In this document: positions 24,051 through 35,625 of the stretch, piece after piece
Layout of the letters: each line of letters opens with the position of its first letter
Numbering within the stretch: position 1 is the stretch's first letter
Source: Clostridia bacterium
Lineage (GTDB): Bacteria; Bacillota; Clostridia; Oscillospirales; Acutalibacteraceae
Length of the DNA stretch: 64,000 nucleotides
Assembly: GCA_017613735.1 (NCBI GenBank)
Contig: JAGADF010000008.1
Location: forward strand, 186,001 to 250,000
Direction: 5' to 3'
Program-made: the position numbers and the translations under genes
The notes under the pieces: model-generated
Databases searched by the model: none
What the model was told of the DNA's origin: nothing
What the model saw: the letters and a program-made list of their open reading frames with translations, nothing else

Positions 24051-24680
24051 TCAAATTTCAAAAAGCTGACCGGGAAGAACAAGTTTTTCTTTTTTGGGAA
24101 AGGTTTTGTCAAATTTCTCCGCTTCTTTTTCGTCAACGAAATATCCCTTCGGCGCAGCGTACTCGCCCGTTACCGCCGAAAGATAGCCTTCCTTCAGTTC
24201 TTTGCAAAGGAAGAATGATGCGTCTGCGCCCTCGGGCAGACCGTGATAGCGGATACCGAATTCGGACGCATATTTAAACCCGCTTTTGCCGTAAAAATCA
24301 ATATTGCCCTCAAAACAAATTGCGCCAAATCCCATTTCAGTCGCCTTTCCAAGCGAATAGTCAAGAAGTTTTTTGCCGTAACCTTTTCGCTTTAATTGAT
24401 TTGCAATACATATAGGTCCCATTGTAACGATGGGGATAGTCCTTCCGTCATCAGCCTTGATAACCGCTTTTACAAACATATTCTGTCCGATAATTCTGCC
24501 GTCCTTTTCCATAACAAAATCAAGTTCTTTTATGAAATCGGGATTTGTTCTGAAAGTGTGAAGCACATAGTGTTCAAGACAACCCGGACGGTAAACATTC
24601 CAGAAACTTTCACGCACAAGCTCTTCAACCGTACGATAGTCTTTTTCTTCTTCCTTACGGATTATAAAATCATTATTCAT
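24051..24680 (-). CDS. GNAT family N-acetyltransferase
   Basis: 209 residues from the ATG at 24680, which has AGGGGA in front and overlaps the stop of the ABC gene. The GNAT core includes VTMGPICIANQLKRKGYGKK with the acetyl-CoA pyrophosphate loop (RKGYGKKLLD), and GFGAICFEGNIDFYGKSGFK as motif B. It is the last gene of the leader-ABC-ABC-GNAT operon. The context suggests it could modify a toxic compound or antibiotic that the exporter handles; the substrate is unknown. Confidence 0.85.
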   Translation of the reverse strand: MNNDFIIRKEEEKDYRTVEELVRESFWNVYRPGCLEHYVLHTFRTNPDFIKELDFVMEKDGRIIGQNMFVKAVIKADDGRTIPIVTMGPICIANQLKRKGYGKKLLDYSLGKATEMGFGAICFEGNIDFYGKSGFKYASEFGIRYHGLPEGADASFFLCKELKEGYLSAVTGEYAAPKGYFVDEKEAEKFDKTFPKKEKLVLPGQLFEI

Positions 24681-26511
24681 TATTACTGTCCCCTTTTTCC
24701 GTCGTATTTTTGTACTTTTCTGCCTGAAGATTAAACATATGGGCATAAGTGCCGTTCATCTTCATCAATTCATCATGAGAACCTATTTCAATAATCCTGC
24801 CGTCCTCCATAACGCAAATTCTGTCCGCGTTGATTGTCGTTGAAAGTCGGTGAGAGATAAAGATAACCGTCTTATTCTCAGCCGCCTCCATCATAGCCTG
24901 GTTGAGATTGTATTCGGCTATCGGATCGAGATTTGCCGACGGCTCGTCGAGAATTGCGTACGGGCAGTCCTTATAGAACGCCCTTGCTATTGCCACCTTC
25001 TGACTTTCACCGCCCGAAAGCATAACGCCCTCATCGTCAAACTCACGCAGAAGTTCGGTGTCAATTCCGTTTTTAAGCTGTTTTGAAAAGCCGCTGTGCT
25101 TTAACGCTTCCTTAACTCTTGCCTCGTTCGGATCAACGTCAAGCGCGACGTTTTCCTTAAGCGAAAAAGCATAGGTCTGGAAATCCTGGAAAACAGCCGC
25201 AAACAGGCTGCGGTGTCCCGAAACGGTATTATCCTTTATGTTTTTACCGTCAATGATTATCTCGCCGTCGGTTACGTCATAAAGGCGCAAAAGCAGATTT
25301 GTAAGCGTGCTCTTGCCCGCTCCGTTATAGCCTACAAGCGCAATTTTTTCATACGGCTTTATTGTGAGATTGATATTCTTAAGCGTCGGTTCTTCGTTGC
25401 CGGGATAAGTAAACGAAAGATTTTTTATCTTAATTTCTTTAGGCTCACGGTAAGTTCTCTTCTCTGCCCCGTCCCTGATTTTTGAGTCTGACGCAAGAAA
25501 CTGTCTGTACTTTTCAATCATTTTGGCGCGCTCGGAGAAGTTTGCCAATGCCCAGACGGTAAGGAAATTAACCGACCACGCTATCTGCGTTGCGCCGTTA
25601 AAGGTTGCGACAAAATCACCTGCCGAAAGGCTGTGCTTTACAAGTGCGCAATAGCCGAGGTAAAGCGGAAGTATGAACATAAAGCCGAGAATGTGAATTC
25701 CCGTTTCCTGAATACAGTAGTAGGTCGAAATCTTTTTCCAGTACTTCTGCTGATTTGTAACGACATCCGTCGCCGCGTCGTTGTAACGCTCAATAAGCAG
25801 AGGCTTAATGCCGTTCATACGAACCTCTTTTGCATACTCCTGAAGATAGAATATGCGCTGGAAATAGTCCGAGCGTCTGTGGAATTTTGCGTTGTCCGTT
25901 CTTCTGCCCATCTGTAAATCGCCGATTTTACGGCTGATGGGAAGAAAGATAATAACCGACGCTATTATTATAAGCAGACACCACGGATCGATTGTAAAGA
26001 GTATCGACGAAATTGTAATAAGCGAAATAATGTCGCCGACATAGTGTTTGACAAGAACCATAAGATTCTGAATATTGTCGGACGAGGATTCAATTGTAAG
26101 AATAAAATTGTTGTAAAATTCGGGATTGTCATAGCTTTCAAGGTCAAGCTCCCTCGCCTTTTCGTAAAGGGTTTTGTTGAGAAGGAAATAGAGCCTTTCC
26201 CTTGCGGTATTGCGATAAAACTCCCTGAAAAGCCACGCAAGACATCTTGAGCCTACAAGTATTGCGGCTATAATGGCAACCGCCTTGAAAATTCTGTCCG
26301 CTCCCGCGCCGCTTGAAACGCTGTCGATTATGTATTTTATGCCGATAACCGAGATAAGCCTTGTGGGCATTATCTGCAGCAAATCCATTATAAAGTCGCC
26401 TATGACCAATCCCGGAGAGAGTCTGAACAGAAGCCTGACAAAATAGAAGATATTCGACGGCATGGAATGACCGGACTTATTCTTTTTTATATCATTCGCT
26501 TTCGCGCTCAT
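24673..26511 (-). CDS. ABC transporter permease/ATP-binding half-exporter (second of pair)
   Basis: 612 residues, six-helix transmembrane domain fused to an ATPase. Walker A is VGYNGAGKSTLTN, the signature LSGGESQKVAIAR, Walker B YAILDEPSANLDP and the H-loop FISHRLS. The ATG at 26511 has a GGAGGGGG box; the frame is open 17 codons further up inside the previous gene, whose end it overlaps by 20 bp. Together with the preceding half-transporter it should form a heterodimeric exporter of the drug or lipid/peptide type. Both ATPase sites look canonical from this subunit. Confidence 0.92.
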   Translation of the reverse strand: MSAKANDIKKNKSGHSMPSNIFYFVRLLFRLSPGLVIGDFIMDLLQIMPTRLISVIGIKYIIDSVSSGAGADRIFKAVAIIAAILVGSRCLAWLFREFYRNTARERLYFLLNKTLYEKARELDLESYDNPEFYNNFILTIESSSDNIQNLMVLVKHYVGDIISLITISSILFTIDPWCLLIIIASVIIFLPISRKIGDLQMGRRTDNAKFHRRSDYFQRIFYLQEYAKEVRMNGIKPLLIERYNDAATDVVTNQQKYWKKISTYYCIQETGIHILGFMFILPLYLGYCALVKHSLSAGDFVATFNGATQIAWSVNFLTVWALANFSERAKMIEKYRQFLASDSKIRDGAEKRTYREPKEIKIKNLSFTYPGNEEPTLKNINLTIKPYEKIALVGYNGAGKSTLTNLLLRLYDVTDGEIIIDGKNIKDNTVSGHRSLFAAVFQDFQTYAFSLKENVALDVDPNEARVKEALKHSGFSKQLKNGIDTELLREFDDEGVMLSGGESQKVAIARAFYKDCPYAILDEPSANLDPIAEYNLNQAMMEAAENKTVIFISHRLSTTINADRICVMEDGRIIEIGSHDELMKMNGTYAHMFNLQAEKYKNTTEKGDSNNE

Positions 26512-28327
26512 ATTCCCCCTCCTTTCTGTTATAGCTCGAAGCCTGAAGGGCAAACATTTCACTGTATTCGCCGCCGCTTTGCATAAGGGACGGGTGCGTT
26601 CCGCTTTCGACTATCCTGCCCTTGTCAAGAACAATGATTTTGTCCGAAAGCACCGCGCTCGAAAGACGGTGTGAAATATAAATGACTGTTTTTTCCTTTG
26701 TCGCTTCAACAAGGTTTTCATACATTTTGTATTCGGCGACCGGGTCCAGAGCGCTTGACGGCTCGTCGAGAATCGCAACCTGAAAATCACGCGCAAAAAG
26801 CCTTGCGGTTGAAACCTTTTGGTTTTCACCGCCAGAAAGTCCCGCGCCGTCCTCTTCGAATTCTCTTGTCAGGACTGTGTCGCCCTCCTTTTTAAAGGTC
26901 TTGATTTTTTCCCAAGCGCCGCTCTGAATAAGCGCTTTTTTCGCTTTTTGTTTATCTTCTTCGCTGCATTCGCGGCACATTACGTTTTCATAAACCGAAA
27001 CCGCAAAGTTTTTATAATCCTGGAACACGGTTGCAAATGCCATTCTCAGAGACTCAACTTTATACTCCTTTATGTTTACGCCGTTATACAAAATTTCGCC
27101 CTCGTCGACGTCATAAAAGCGAAGAAGGAGCTTGACGAGCGTGCTCTTGCCCGCGCCGTTTATACCCACAACCGCGACTGTTTCGCCCTTTGTGATTTTA
27201 AACGAGATATTGTCTATTGACTTAACCTCGGCAGTCGGGTATTTAAAGGAAATATTCTTAGCCTCAAGGCTTTCGAATTCCCCCGCTTCCTTTGTTCCGT
27301 CCACAATCTTCGGCTCATAGTCAAAGAAGGAACGCAGATTCTCAAAGAACAGCGCCATCTGCGAAAGCTCGTCAAAGCATTCAGCAATATCGAGAGTAGC
27401 GTTTTTTATGGAATTGATTGAAGAAATGACGACGGAAAAGCCCGAAACGGTAAGGCTGCTTTTGAATACAAATTCATAACCCGCATAAGCGTATGTGCCG
27501 ATAATCGGAATGAACTCGCTGAAAAGAGAGCTTACCATACTGTAAACAAACAGCTTCAAGCCGTAACGCCTTAGAATAACGATATTCGCTTTTATGGCTG
27601 CCTCAAACCTTTTCATAAGAACAAGAAATATGTTTGAGGTGCGTATATCCTTTGAATAGTCCTTCAGGAAAACTGTTCTCTGAATATACGCTTTGATACG
27701 GTTGTTTTTTGTCATTTCAAGGTCGCGCCTGTAAACCGCCCTGCTCTTGTAAAGCTCAATTGCAAAAACAAAAAGAACGGGAACAAGAAAGAGAAGATAA
27801 ACGGGATTTATTGACGTTATGGTTGCAACGACGCAGATAAACGCAAGCGTATCTGCGACAATCAGCGCAACGTCATAGCAGATAATGTCAAAATACCCGC
27901 TCGACATTATATTTGTCGCCCTCTGGTACTTATCGTAAAACGCGGGATCCTCATAGCAAGAAATATCAAGGCTTACCGCCTTTTCAAAAACCATATTGTT
28001 AAGCTTCTGCAGTACTTTTTTTGTAGCGACGTGGCTCATATAATAGCCCCACCACTCAAGAATATTGAGAATTACCGAGCAGATAAGGAATAAGACAAGA
28101 TATTTCACATACGCCTTGAAATCGCCATGAGTATCAATGGCTGTAAGGAGCGTTTTAAGAAACAGAATATTCTGAATAAACAGGGCAAAGAACTGTTCGG
28201 CTGTAAGCCCGATAATGTAACCGAGCATAAGCCATTTGTCCGCCTTAAGACAAAGCTTTAGAGCGTAGACAACATTTTTTAACACAGGGACCTTGACGTC
28301 CTCGTGCAGTTTAATATATCTCGGCAT
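26492..28327 (-). CDS. ABC transporter permease/ATP-binding half-exporter (first of pair)
   Basis: 611 residues, transmembrane domain plus ATPase. Walker A is VGINGAGKSTLVK, the signature LSGGENQKVSTAR, Walker B VAILDEPSSALDP and the H-loop YISHRLSS. The start has GGAGGTGAAAGA. The gene is preceded by an intrinsic terminator-like hairpin only 27 bp before the start, and before that by a 36-codon leader ORF, so expression is probably controlled by attenuation. Pairing with the next gene points to a BmrCD-like heterodimeric multidrug exporter, though a peptide exporter is possible. Confidence 0.92.
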   Translation of the reverse strand: MPRYIKLHEDVKVPVLKNVVYALKLCLKADKWLMLGYIIGLTAEQFFALFIQNILFLKTLLTAIDTHGDFKAYVKYLVLFLICSVILNILEWWGYYMSHVATKKVLQKLNNMVFEKAVSLDISCYEDPAFYDKYQRATNIMSSGYFDIICYDVALIVADTLAFICVVATITSINPVYLLFLVPVLFVFAIELYKSRAVYRRDLEMTKNNRIKAYIQRTVFLKDYSKDIRTSNIFLVLMKRFEAAIKANIVILRRYGLKLFVYSMVSSLFSEFIPIIGTYAYAGYEFVFKSSLTVSGFSVVISSINSIKNATLDIAECFDELSQMALFFENLRSFFDYEPKIVDGTKEAGEFESLEAKNISFKYPTAEVKSIDNISFKITKGETVAVVGINGAGKSTLVKLLLRFYDVDEGEILYNGVNIKEYKVESLRMAFATVFQDYKNFAVSVYENVMCRECSEEDKQKAKKALIQSGAWEKIKTFKKEGDTVLTREFEEDGAGLSGGENQKVSTARLFARDFQVAILDEPSSALDPVAEYKMYENLVEATKEKTVIYISHRLSSAVLSDKIIVLDKGRIVESGTHPSLMQSGGEYSEMFALQASSYNRKEGEYERESE

Positions 28328-28353
28328 TCTTTCACCTCCGAATAATAATAAAA

Positions 28354-28376
28354 AGCCGTCGGCTTTACCGACGGCT
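28354..28376 (-). promoter_or_regulatory. Attenuator terminator of the ABC exporter operon with competing antiterminator
   Basis: Minus-strand hairpin AGCCGTCGG-TAAAG-CCGACGGCT followed by TTTTATTATTATT, a 9-bp intrinsic terminator between the leader ORF and the exporter start. Its 5' arm and loop (TCGGTAAAG, 28363-28371) can pair instead with CTTTGCCGA inside the leader ORF (28427-28435): nine base pairs including one G-U. CCGAGT of that segment can in turn pair with GCTCGG (28483-28488) earlier in the ORF. These are the segments 1:2, 2:3 and 3:4 of a ribosome-controlled attenuator. Confidence 0.75.
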
Positions 28377-28409
28377 GGATACTATGATTAACAGACACAA
28401 TTTAACCAA

Positions 28410-28520
28410 TCAAAAAATCTCCGCACTCGGCAAAGCAATATGTTTTTTTACAGAATGGATTGAAAGCTCGACAAGGTTAGTTCCGAGCCCGTTATTCGAA
28501 AATACACGGATTTTCAACAT
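28410..28520 (-). CDS. 36-residue leader peptide of the ABC exporter operon
   Basis: A small ORF with a very strong ribosome binding site (AAAGGAGG, 9 nt before ATG). Protein: MLKIRVFSNNGLGTNLVELS, then IHSVKKHIALPSAEIF. It resembles no known family and has no signal peptide, double-glycine or lanthipeptide-like core. It has its own consensus promoter and is followed by a terminator before the exporter genes. Codons for GLG and ALPS contain the RNA segments that choose between terminator and antiterminator. The ORF is therefore best read as a sensor of ribosome stalling; a secreted or bioactive peptide is less likely but not excluded. Confidence 0.7.
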   Translation of the reverse strand: MLKIRVFSNNGLGTNLVELSIHSVKKHIALPSAEIF

Positions 28521-28571
28521 TTTGTTTTGCCTCCTTTACGAAAATTTCAGCGTATTAACACGCTAATGCAC

Positions 28572-28600
28572 ATTATAAAACGATATGGAAAAAATTTCAA
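28572..28600 (-). promoter_or_regulatory. Promoter of the leader-ABC-ABC-GNAT operon
   Basis: Minus strand TTGAAA (28595-28600), 17-bp spacer, TATAAT (28572-28577). The transcript would start near 28565 and carry a small hairpin TTAGCGT/ACGCTGA before the leader ribosome binding site. Confidence 0.8.
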
Positions 28601-33423: not shown

Positions 33424-35625
33424 ATGACGAAAAAAATTATAAGCATTATACTGTGTGTTCTTATGCTTGTAACGGTTATTCCGTTTACGGTATTTGCAGA
33501 CAACGTTAAAATCTCAACCGTAGACCTCTTATATGATGAAGGCGCGGCGACGTTTAACACGGGTTATACGGAAGGTGAATGTGAAGATTCGATTGCAGCC
33601 AACTGCTCTGTTGAAACAGTCGGCGTGAGAATTGACGATTTCTCTTTATCCGTACAAAGCTCTGACGGAACAGACTGGTGGGGAATCGGAAACGGGACAT
33701 CCATGGCGTCATATGATAAAACATACGCAATGCGTGTTATACTCGAATTAAAAAACGGATATGACTGGATTGACGTAATGAAATTGGATGAGTTAAAGCA
33801 CTCCGTCGCTGATTTTCCCGAATTTACGGTTAATTTCAACGGTGAAAAGAGAACGGACGTTTGGTTCTGTTACAATGCCTCCTGGAACAGTATAGTTTTT
33901 TACATTCCCATAGGCCATCCTTCGACAAGTCCGTGTATAAAAAGCGTTACGCTTACCGAAAAAAATCTTTCGGTGGCTGTTAACTCAAGCCATCAGTTCG
34001 AAACCGTTGTCGAAGGCACTAGCGATAATAAAAACATCGTCTGGCAGCTTTTCGGAAACAACAGCGACGACACTGTTATCTCGAATTCGGGAATGCTTTT
34101 TATAGCCGAAGATGAAACAGCAACTACGCTCACAGTAAGGGCAACAAGCGAATTTGATTTTCACAAGTTTGACGAAGCGACGGTTACGGTTACGTTGACC
34201 GCACCGACAATTGACGGAATCGAGTTTGTTAACCCGTCTGAAAATGTTTACAAAGGCGACAATAAGACCTTTACGGTAATCATAACGGGAACCCAGGCAA
34301 ATAAAAATGTTAATTTTACTCTTCAGGGTGATGAGAGCGCAGACACAACCGTTTCCGAAGCTTTCAATTACAGACAAATTGACGAAACAACCACCAAAGC
34401 GGACGTATCGGTTTATATAAGCAACGATGAAACGGCTACTACTATTTATCTCTGGGCGACAAGCGTTGCGGACAATACAAAGAGCGTATATGCAATAATC
34501 AACATTATGGAAACCGAAAAGTATTCGCGCGTTGACCTTATGTATGACGAGAATGCAGTTAAATTCAAGCTTTCCGACACCGAGAGTTACGCCCGAAGCA
34601 AAGCAGCAGAGGCGGCGGCAGTCACAACAGACGGTATTTCGATGGACAACCTTTATCTGATGTACAAATTGGAAAGCTGGAACGGCATAGGCGATGGAAC
34701 AAACACGGTAGATAAAAACAAAAACTATGCGCTTGAATATACTCTTGAAATCAAAGGCAACACCCACGATTGGCCCAACGCGCTCAAAGCAGACTCGAAT
34801 AATCATATTATTACCGAAGTCGAAGGCTTCGAAGTATATGTAAACGGCAAAAAGAGAACCGATGTCGAATTCAAATACAACAGTTATTGGAATTATATTT
34901 ACATATATGTTCCCGCAGACATTATTCTTAACGGCTTTTTAACCGAGGACGGCAAAACGTATTATTATATTGACGGCGTGCCCGTCACAAGCAAGCTTAT
35001 GACCATTGAAGGCAAAAAGTATTACTTCGGCAAGGACGGAGCTATGTATACAAGCAAGCTTATTTCAGTCAGCGGCAAGAAATACTATGTCGGCAAGGAC
35101 GGCGCGGCTTATACGAAAAAGCTTATCTCCGTAAACGGCAAAAAGTATTATATGGGTGCTGACGGCGTTGCATATACGAAAAAGCTTATCTCCGTAAACG
35201 GCAAAAAGTATTATATGGGTGCTGACGGCGTTGCATATACGAACAAGCTTATCTCCGTAAACGGCAAGAAGTACTATATGGGCAAAGACGGCGCGGCATA
35301 TACAAGCAAGCTCATTTCCGTTGACGGTAAGAAGTATTATATGGGCAAGGACGCGGTTGCATACACAAGCAAGCTCGCTTCAATCGATGGTAAGAAATAT
35401 TACTTCGGCAAAGACGGAGTTGCTTACAAGTCAAAGCTCATTTCAGTAAGCGGTAAGAAGTATTATATCGGCAAGGACTGTATAGCTTATAAATCAAAGT
35501 TTGCATCACTTAGCGGGAAGAAATACTATTTCGGCTCCGACTGCGTAATGTATAAGAGCAAGACCTTCTCGGTAAGCGGCGTTAAATGGAGAGCTGATTC
35601 CAACGGCGTTTGCAAGAAAGTATAA
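33424..35625 (+). CDS. Secreted multidomain protein with choline/glucan-binding-like C-terminal repeats
   Basis: 733 residues. A signal peptide (about 1-25, ending VFADN) is followed by an unrecognised domain A (about 31-165). Two Ig-like domains come next (about 175-260 and 263-365), then a second copy of domain A (about 370-500; shared patterns VDLLYDE/VDLMYDE, GIGNGTS/GIGDGTN, VNGKKRTDV). About ten 21-residue repeats of the form SKLISVxGKKYYxGKDGxAYT (about 505-715) resemble cell-wall or glucan-binding repeats and probably attach the protein to the surface. The ATG follows CGGAGG. No catalytic domain was recognised. Confidence 0.8.
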   Translation: MTKKIISIILCVLMLVTVIPFTVFADNVKISTVDLLYDEGAATFNTGYTEGECEDSIAANCSVETVGVRIDDFSLSVQSSDGTDWWGIGNGTSMASYDKTYAMRVILELKNGYDWIDVMKLDELKHSVADFPEFTVNFNGEKRTDVWFCYNASWNSIVFYIPIGHPSTSPCIKSVTLTEKNLSVAVNSSHQFETVVEGTSDNKNIVWQLFGNNSDDTVISNSGMLFIAEDETATTLTVRATSEFDFHKFDEATVTVTLTAPTIDGIEFVNPSENVYKGDNKTFTVIITGTQANKNVNFTLQGDESADTTVSEAFNYRQIDETTTKADVSVYISNDETATTIYLWATSVADNTKSVYAIINIMETEKYSRVDLMYDENAVKFKLSDTESYARSKAAEAAAVTTDGISMDNLYLMYKLESWNGIGDGTNTVDKNKNYALEYTLEIKGNTHDWPNALKADSNNHIITEVEGFEVYVNGKKRTDVEFKYNSYWNYIYIYVPADIILNGFLTEDGKTYYYIDGVPVTSKLMTIEGKKYYFGKDGAMYTSKLISVSGKKYYVGKDGAAYTKKLISVNGKKYYMGADGVAYTKKLISVNGKKYYMGADGVAYTNKLISVNGKKYYMGKDGAAYTSKLISVDGKKYYMGKDAVAYTSKLASIDGKKYYFGKDGVAYKSKLISVSGKKYYIGKDCIAYKSKFASLSGKKYYFGSDCVMYKSKTFSVSGVKWRADSNGVCKKV
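34950..35600 (+). repeat. Tandem 63-bp repeats encoding 21-residue modules
   Basis: About ten tandem copies of a 63-bp unit. Two neighbouring units (35113-35175 and 35176-35238) are identical except possibly at the last bases, which shows recent duplication; the outer copies have diverged. Confidence 0.85.

Follow-up and report, generated by a model that had tools for sequence, protein, structure and literature searches.

What controls the ABC exporter pair carried by an uncultured gut bacterium (Clostridia bacterium, contig JAGADF010000008.1), and what would the leader region before it sense? This region was analyzed within a window of 64,000 nucleotides, the whole stretch of DNA under study. 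The original prediction was of a leader-peptide transcription attenuator, released by ribosome stalling anywhere before the distal leader codons. The attenuator before an exporter pair is retained here, while this stalling rule is not. The reading that we favor, with a probability of roughly 0.7, is a start-codon-sensing transcription attenuator: a ribosome held at the first codons would permit an antiterminator to form and the exporter to be transcribed.

Layout of the leader unit

The unit consists of the following features (window positions, in approximate order of transcription):

28572-28600, minus strand: predicted sigma-A promoter, TTGAAA-17-TATAAT, matching 11 of 12 consensus positions
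28537-28548, minus strand: 5'UTR stretch lengthening the window's predicted anti-antiterminator helix by pairing with 28425-28414 (fold)
28530-28537, minus strand: Shine-Dalgarno (SD) sequence AAAGGAGG of the leader ORF, read directly
28516-28531, minus strand: segment 1 (SD end, spacer and start codon), the putative anti-antiterminator strand, based on unmasked folds and class support from own-versus-cross comparison
28410-28520, minus strand: leader ORF of 36 codons, MLKIRVFSNNGLGTNLVELSIHSVKKHIALPSAEIF, read directly and in translation
28427-28444, minus strand: segment 2 within the distal leader codons, with 28444-28429 as the partner of segment 1 and 28435-28427 as that of segment 3
28363-28371, minus strand: segment 3, terminator 5' arm and loop, the antiterminator partner (9 pairs with segment 2)
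28354-28376, minus strand: intrinsic terminator hairpin formed by segments 3 and 4 (10 pairs, one of them G-U; -17.6 kcal/mol)
26492-28327, minus strand: 611-aa half 1 of the ABC exporter, with which the controlled operon begins (translation, homology searches)
24673-26511, minus strand: ABC exporter half 2, with its likely start at ATG 26511 behind AAAGGAGGG and not at GTG 26562

The promoter, SD sequence, ORF and exporter start were all located as originally predicted, with the exporter ATG at 28327 lying 26 nt past the terminator stem. The terminator was also correctly placed, although its stem had been counted as 9 bp. It begins 33 nt past the leader stop codon and is followed immediately by TTTTATTATT, the U-rich tract running to about 28344. 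The position of the predicted promoter places the transcript start near 28565. The genes rpsI and rplM lie upstream; because rpsI ends in a separate terminator-like hairpin of its own (28662-28638), the leader unit probably relies on its own predicted promoter for transcription. A palindrome at 28566-28547, just downstream of the -10 box, could be a 5'-end hairpin or an operator, and the 5' ends of many relatives' leaders show comparable palindromes whose letters vary by locus (GTTACGTAAC, GTTGCGCAAC, ATTGATTAATCAAT).

Minimum-energy folding of the 239-nt minus-strand leader RNA, a check proposed with the original prediction, gave a fold more stable than expected by chance (z = -2.73; 3 of 200 shuffles equally good). 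When both strands of the 64-kb window were scanned for an SD sequence, a 15-60-codon ORF and a terminator no more than 60 nt past its stop (loops of 3-8 only), the leader unit at 28520 was the single match. The leader matched none of 4227 Rfam families at the gathering threshold, a tRNA-Ser being the sole match in the window, and an Rfam scan of 20 exporter loci gave zero matches.

Leaders of related exporters

A DNA search with the leader in the 38 other genomes of the genus identified no true relative, only a 24-nt chance match. As the leader diverges too fast for relatives to be found at the DNA level, these were collected via the exporter. An exporter orthologue (65-70% identity) or the window's own copy is present in 25 of the 39 genus genomes, that of the window included. 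The genus loci, the best 80 of 92 from a public genome collection and six from an order search gave a total of 88 distinct exporter loci (numbered with the prefix L) from related gut and rumen Clostridia. Leaders, recognized by an SD sequence, an ORF and a terminator, were called in 40 of these; none was called in 46, and two have less than 200 nt of upstream sequence. The 40 comprise 39 called at first and L124, found later among loci initially without a leader. L136 and L096 were added by eye after the complementarity described below was noticed, and L018 was recovered only by a wider search. Because L089 and L128 have almost the same sequence, the 40-locus pairing set represents 39 distinct loci.

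The relatives' leaders occupy the same place and have 24-45 codons, with no obvious peptide in common across the whole set. Their terminator lies past the leader stop in 39 of 40 loci (the exception being L072), and is 208, 252 and 306 nt from the exporter in L012, L011 and L018, respectively. Since 46 of the 88 loci have no called leader, the exporter can evidently do without one. Apparent natural losses were seen in L013 and L015, with a promoter directly before the exporter and neither leader nor terminator, and in L099, which kept its terminator without a leader ORF (compare L096) and was not counted as a leader. Also uncounted were L014 and L016, in which an SD sequence (within a local hairpin) and a short ORF running through a terminator-like hairpin lie approximately 95 nt upstream of the exporter, possibly as another kind of attenuator.

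A first MAFFT/RNAalifold fold of the leaders gave no consensus structure, and an RNA model (R1) was built from one clade. At E ≤ 0.05, R1 matched 17 of 39 genus genomes, 16 of them at exporter leaders; it also gave five weak genus matches, one of which supplies the 17th genome. Among 394 order genomes eight were matched, two at known leaders and six weakly. The 11 weak loci (L050-L060) were dismissed as chance after reading by eye. Patterns for two of the SD/distal pairs described below matched 10 of 39 genus genomes, four at exporter leaders and six at sites resembling coding starts, as well as 2 of 197 order genomes. Neither R1 nor the patterns placed another gene under these leader sequences, a search from which an analogous leader with other letters would escape.

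Alternative pairings and the predicted effect of ribosome position

In unmasked folds of the window RNA, 14 pairs join 28531-28516 to 28444-28429 (GGCAAA.CAA.AUGUU with AACAU.UUG.UUUGCC). Inspection by eye of other leaders showed that the bases just past the SD sequence are likewise complementary to codons near the leader end, with letters that differ between leaders (GGCAGAAA/UUUCUGCC, GGCAAAAAUG/UGUUUUUGCC, GGUGAACACAA/UUGUGUUCACU, AGGCGAACAU/GUGUUCGCCU and GGCGAAACAUAAUG/UAUUAUGUUUUGCC). This complementarity was evaluated with an own-versus-cross test, in which the SD-start region of each leader is combined with the distal codons of every other, without choosing partners, and the strongest duplex is recorded for each combination. 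Among 21 representatives, own pairs averaged -17.6 and cross pairs -12.55 kcal/mol (0 of 20,000 permutations, and again 0 of 20,000 in sets of 27 and of 14 representatives). For the spacer by itself the values were -14.5 against -9.71 (0 of 20,000). No own-specific pairing with the distal codons was observed for two control regions, codons 4-12 and 5'UTR positions -45 to -18, and the 28548-28537 extension of the window helix is therefore specific to the window. SD-distal pairing energy fell below the mean of its own, approximately dinucleotide-preserving, shuffles in 40 of 40 leaders. These results support the leader's own SD-to-start-codon region as the likely partner of segment 2.

The support is a statement on the class, because only 7 of 21 leaders have their own pair as the best of the row, and 8 as the best of the column. 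The window is a modest member: its own energy takes fourth place in its row and third in its column among the 21, and is matched by 12 of 200 shuffles. For several leaders, the window among them, the length of the longest unbroken helix discriminates poorly between own and cross pairs (window 7, cross mean 6.5). L124, from outside the test set, has a 12-pair run of GUGAAUAUAACG with CGUUAUAUUCGC (G-U allowed) and an SD-distal energy of -22.8 against -10.7 kcal/mol, matched by 0 of 500 shuffles that preserve base content alone.

The antiterminator proposed originally, between segments 2 and 3, was corroborated. In the window CTTTGCCGA (28435-28427) is complementary to TCGGTAAAG (28371-28363) over 9 pairs, one of them G-U, and a longer version of the helix reaches -16.6 kcal/mol by RNAduplex. 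Distal codons and terminator 5' arm are also own-specific across relatives (-12.18 own, -10.29 cross; 3 of 20,000 permutations), a result that makes the 9-pair helix a member of a supported class. Controls with the 3' arm, with codons 1-16 and with the SD region against either arm were null. The 2:3 pairing is weak or misplaced in some leaders (L068, L071, L100).

The nascent RNA would have three mutually exclusive helices available, the 1:2 anti-antiterminator, the 2:3 antiterminator and the 3:4 terminator. Folds were computed for RNA ending in the terminator loop, at which point segment 4 has yet to be made, with masks mimicking a parked ribosome (35 nt at the start, 24 nt for the control). 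Mean expected 2:3 pairs in the 21 representatives were 3.80 unmasked, 8.65 with the start masked and 7.97 with codon 4 occupied, compared with 4.13 under the control mask and 2.37 with a ribosome at the stop. Start masking raised 2:3 pairing in 19 of 21 and lowered it in none; the control mask raised it in three and lowered it in three, and a 35-nt mask on the 5'UTR raised it in six and lowered it in eight. Across all 39 loci with a terminator, start masking raised 2:3 in 32 and lowered it in none. Replacing segment 1 with that of another leader increased 2:3 in 14 of 21 and decreased it in two. The elements, the two covarying alternative pairings and this response of predicted pairing to masking were established computationally.

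For the window RNA ending at 28363, masking the start raised the expected pairs of the 9-pair 2:3 helix from 0.21 in the free state to 7.69; a ribosome on codon 4 raised them to 8.49, and one on the stop codon reduced them to 0.0. The predicted switch is sensitive to length, falling to 1.31 start-masked pairs when the RNA ends at 28364. Helix 2:3 became the minimum-energy fold only when RNA to 28363 was combined with an occupied codon 4. In the window, masking the 5'UTR raises 2:3 more than masking the start (9.2 and 5.2). In full-length window RNA, masked or unmasked, the terminator is part of the minimum-energy fold, and we therefore infer that the choice must be kinetic, made during transcription.

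According to the start-codon-sensing reading, helix 1:2 and then the terminator would form in a leader without a ribosome. In the window, a ribosome translating freely to the end would cover segment 2, again allowing the terminator to form; this OFF state is not uniform, because occupancy of the stop lowers 2:3 in 14 of 21 representatives and raises it in four (L144, L067, L135, L064). Delay of a ribosome on the start codon or first few codons would keep segment 1 covered and leave segment 2 free when segment 3 emerges, so that 2:3 would form and RNA polymerase would read through into the exporter. The likely cause of such a delay is a compound of the tetracycline, lincosamide or pleuromutilin type that targets the ribosome during initiation or formation of the first peptide bonds, and we infer it to be both the signal and the exported compound. 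Tetracycline and retapamulin (PMC12121999) and lincosamides and pleuromutilins (PMC9226507) are reported to hold ribosomes at start codons, and are therefore natural candidate inducers.

The original prediction assigned segment 1 to GCTCGG (28488-28483), with stalling anywhere before segment 2 freeing the latter from a hairpin. We consider this quite improbable. GCTCGG and CCGAGT (28430-28425) are indeed complementary in the window, but the pairing has no support in relatives: GCTCGG is missing from all 13 of the other representatives examined, codons 4-12 pair with their own distal codons no better than with those of other leaders (19,103 of 20,000 permutations as good or better), and in the unmasked nascent-RNA fold GCTCGG pairs locally with 28471-28466. 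The proposed comparison of orthologous upstream regions thus recovered covarying 1:2 (via the SD region) and 2:3 pairings and not the GCTCGG stem, and places the relevant hold at the first few codons. A different role for the SD-distal helix, that it mainly self-limits leader translation while the terminator is otherwise controlled or is constitutive with fixed read-through, is unlikely in our estimation, even though SD and AUG lie inside the helix. The tlrB hairpin also represses further leader translation (PMC6851288). Self-limitation is opposed by the position of segment 2, which overlaps or adjoins the antiterminator arm, by the independent own-specificity of 2:3 and by the increase in 2:3 upon masking of segment 1 in 19 of 21 representatives.

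Two further explanations concern the peptide. Sensing of a charged tRNA by leader codons, as in an amino-acid attenuator, could for example draw on tyrosine. In codons 2-16 of the 21 representatives Tyr makes up 37 of 315 residues (11.7%), whereas shuffled codons give 5.6% (binomial p 2e-5, uncorrected for 20 residues or relatedness); the L124 leader is very Tyr-rich. As the window leader has neither Tyr nor a codon run, the leaders share no single-codon run and the controlled genes are exporters rather than synthesis enzymes, such sensing is very improbable. The Tyr enrichment offers a lead that some leaders may also favor early stalling via nascent-chain effects, and the Tyr/Thr bias of codons 2-16 may represent early drug-dependent stalling contexts. 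Threonine is the second residue in 10 of 21 representative leaders. Least probable of all is that the leader ORF encodes a peptide secreted by the exporter. A small ORF does adjoin an ABC exporter, but the peptides diverge strongly while RNA pairing is kept, one clade reads the RNA stretch near the stop in two frames (ends HTCD/SCD or PILAI), and the terminator and alternative helices would be superfluous.

Known attenuators, a clade-specific hairpin and exporter genes

The window has the general components of a ribosome-mediated attenuator, a translatable leader ORF upstream of an intrinsic terminator and a competing antiterminator. Attenuators have long been predicted in front of ABC transporters (PMC2965389; PMC4319486). 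The closest likeness in logic is B. subtilis vmlR (PMC9226507), where a ribosome arrested at uORF initiation blocks the anti-antiterminator and the antiterminator replaces the terminator. A start-bound ribosome has the same disruptive effect here at the level of masked-fold prediction. In vmlR, however, the uORF is three codons within a bulge of the anti-antiterminator, its SD is single-stranded upstream and the target is an ABCF factor; the window instead has a 36-codon leader, an SD end and AUG inside the helix, paired with its own distal codons, and an exporter as target. The closest likeness in setting is B. subtilis bmrB-bmrCD (PMC4191407), where an ABC exporter pair is likewise preceded by a leader ORF and subject to transcription attenuation, and where antibiotic slowing is proposed to favor the antiterminator. 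In bmrB, every structure falls inside the coding sequence (nt 60-162) and its anti-antiterminator is described as having an unclear role, whereas here the terminator lies past the leader stop and the predicted anti-antiterminator draws on the SD and start codon. B. subtilis tlrB (yxjB) is similar in that a leader hairpin can repress leader translation and an antibiotic-stalled ribosome prevents termination, but stalling at a C-terminal RYR motif blocks the terminator directly, and no antiterminator was found (PMC6851288). The E. coli toiL uORF differs in controlling translation and Rho-dependent termination of a toxin-antitoxin operon (PMC12121999). S. pneumoniae patAB has a predicted terminator, antiterminator and anti-antiterminator before an ABC exporter pair; its reported inducers are fluoroquinolones and DNA damage, and the accessible part of the report mentions no leader ORF (PMC4319486).

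The proposed switch would thus have the logic of vmlR and the setting of bmrB-bmrCD, and would differ in its use of the SD and start codon as a switching strand. Within the open full-text literature, no anti-antiterminator formed by an SD/start codon and the leader's own distal codons was identified with a leader this long. The E. coli trpL leader is self-limited through its ribosome-binding site. There is, in our estimate, an even chance that these leaders form a distinct attenuator class, whose letters evolution has repeatedly rewritten in gut and rumen Clostridia, with their own SD and start codon as the anti-antiterminator strand. If so, the class would read start-codon occupancy rather than a nascent-peptide motif; the peptide would therefore be free to drift, and any agent parking ribosomes at start codons would induce. 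A leader could then monitor the state of the ribosome in general and would need no arrest peptide. An SD spacer complementary to distal leader codons that also fit the terminator 5' arm would provide a search signature for uncultured bacteria. If antibiotics are the signal, this signature would point to exporters of gut commensals that are inducible, and start-codon-stalling compounds could be screened for their substrates.

Sixteen genus loci (L008, L009, L011, L012, L017-L028) carry a further hairpin near the leader stop (for example, L019:3373-3439, minus strand), which the window lacks. Its bulge, CUUGCG (UACUUGCG/UUCUUGCG), is invariant in the 16 aligned sequences, and the hairpin is read in two different frames across loci. 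The stems covary: 9 of 10 pairs show changes in both partners (0 of 500 shuffles). This count comes from an alignment fitted to a structure derived from the same sequences and retaining two weak rows that are probably chance (L088, on the opposite strand, and L006). Those of the loci that were scanned against Rfam gave zero matches. The hairpin could be a protein or ligand site, and could act as a second input to the switch.

Sequence searches gave both exporter halves a B-type exporter character. Among the best 60 of 569 and 574 PDB matches, the closest sequences for both halves were eukaryotic ABCB proteins, the yeast a-factor exporter, MsbA and Sav1866; among the 25 NCBIfam matches listed per half, none reached the curated cut-off. 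BmrC/BmrD is a heterodimeric exporter with one degenerate ATP site, whereas the translations here show intact LSGGE and DEP (ILDEP) motifs in both ATPase halves. The very likely start of half 2 overlaps the end of half 1 (ATG 26511 and 26492), and a GNAT-family acetyltransferase frame (24051-24746, minus strand) overlaps the end of half 2, possibly as part of the same operon. Elsewhere in the window, a 733-aa protein (33424-35625, plus strand) has C-terminal GKKYYxGxDGxxYT-type repeats, which we take to resemble cell-wall-binding repeats.
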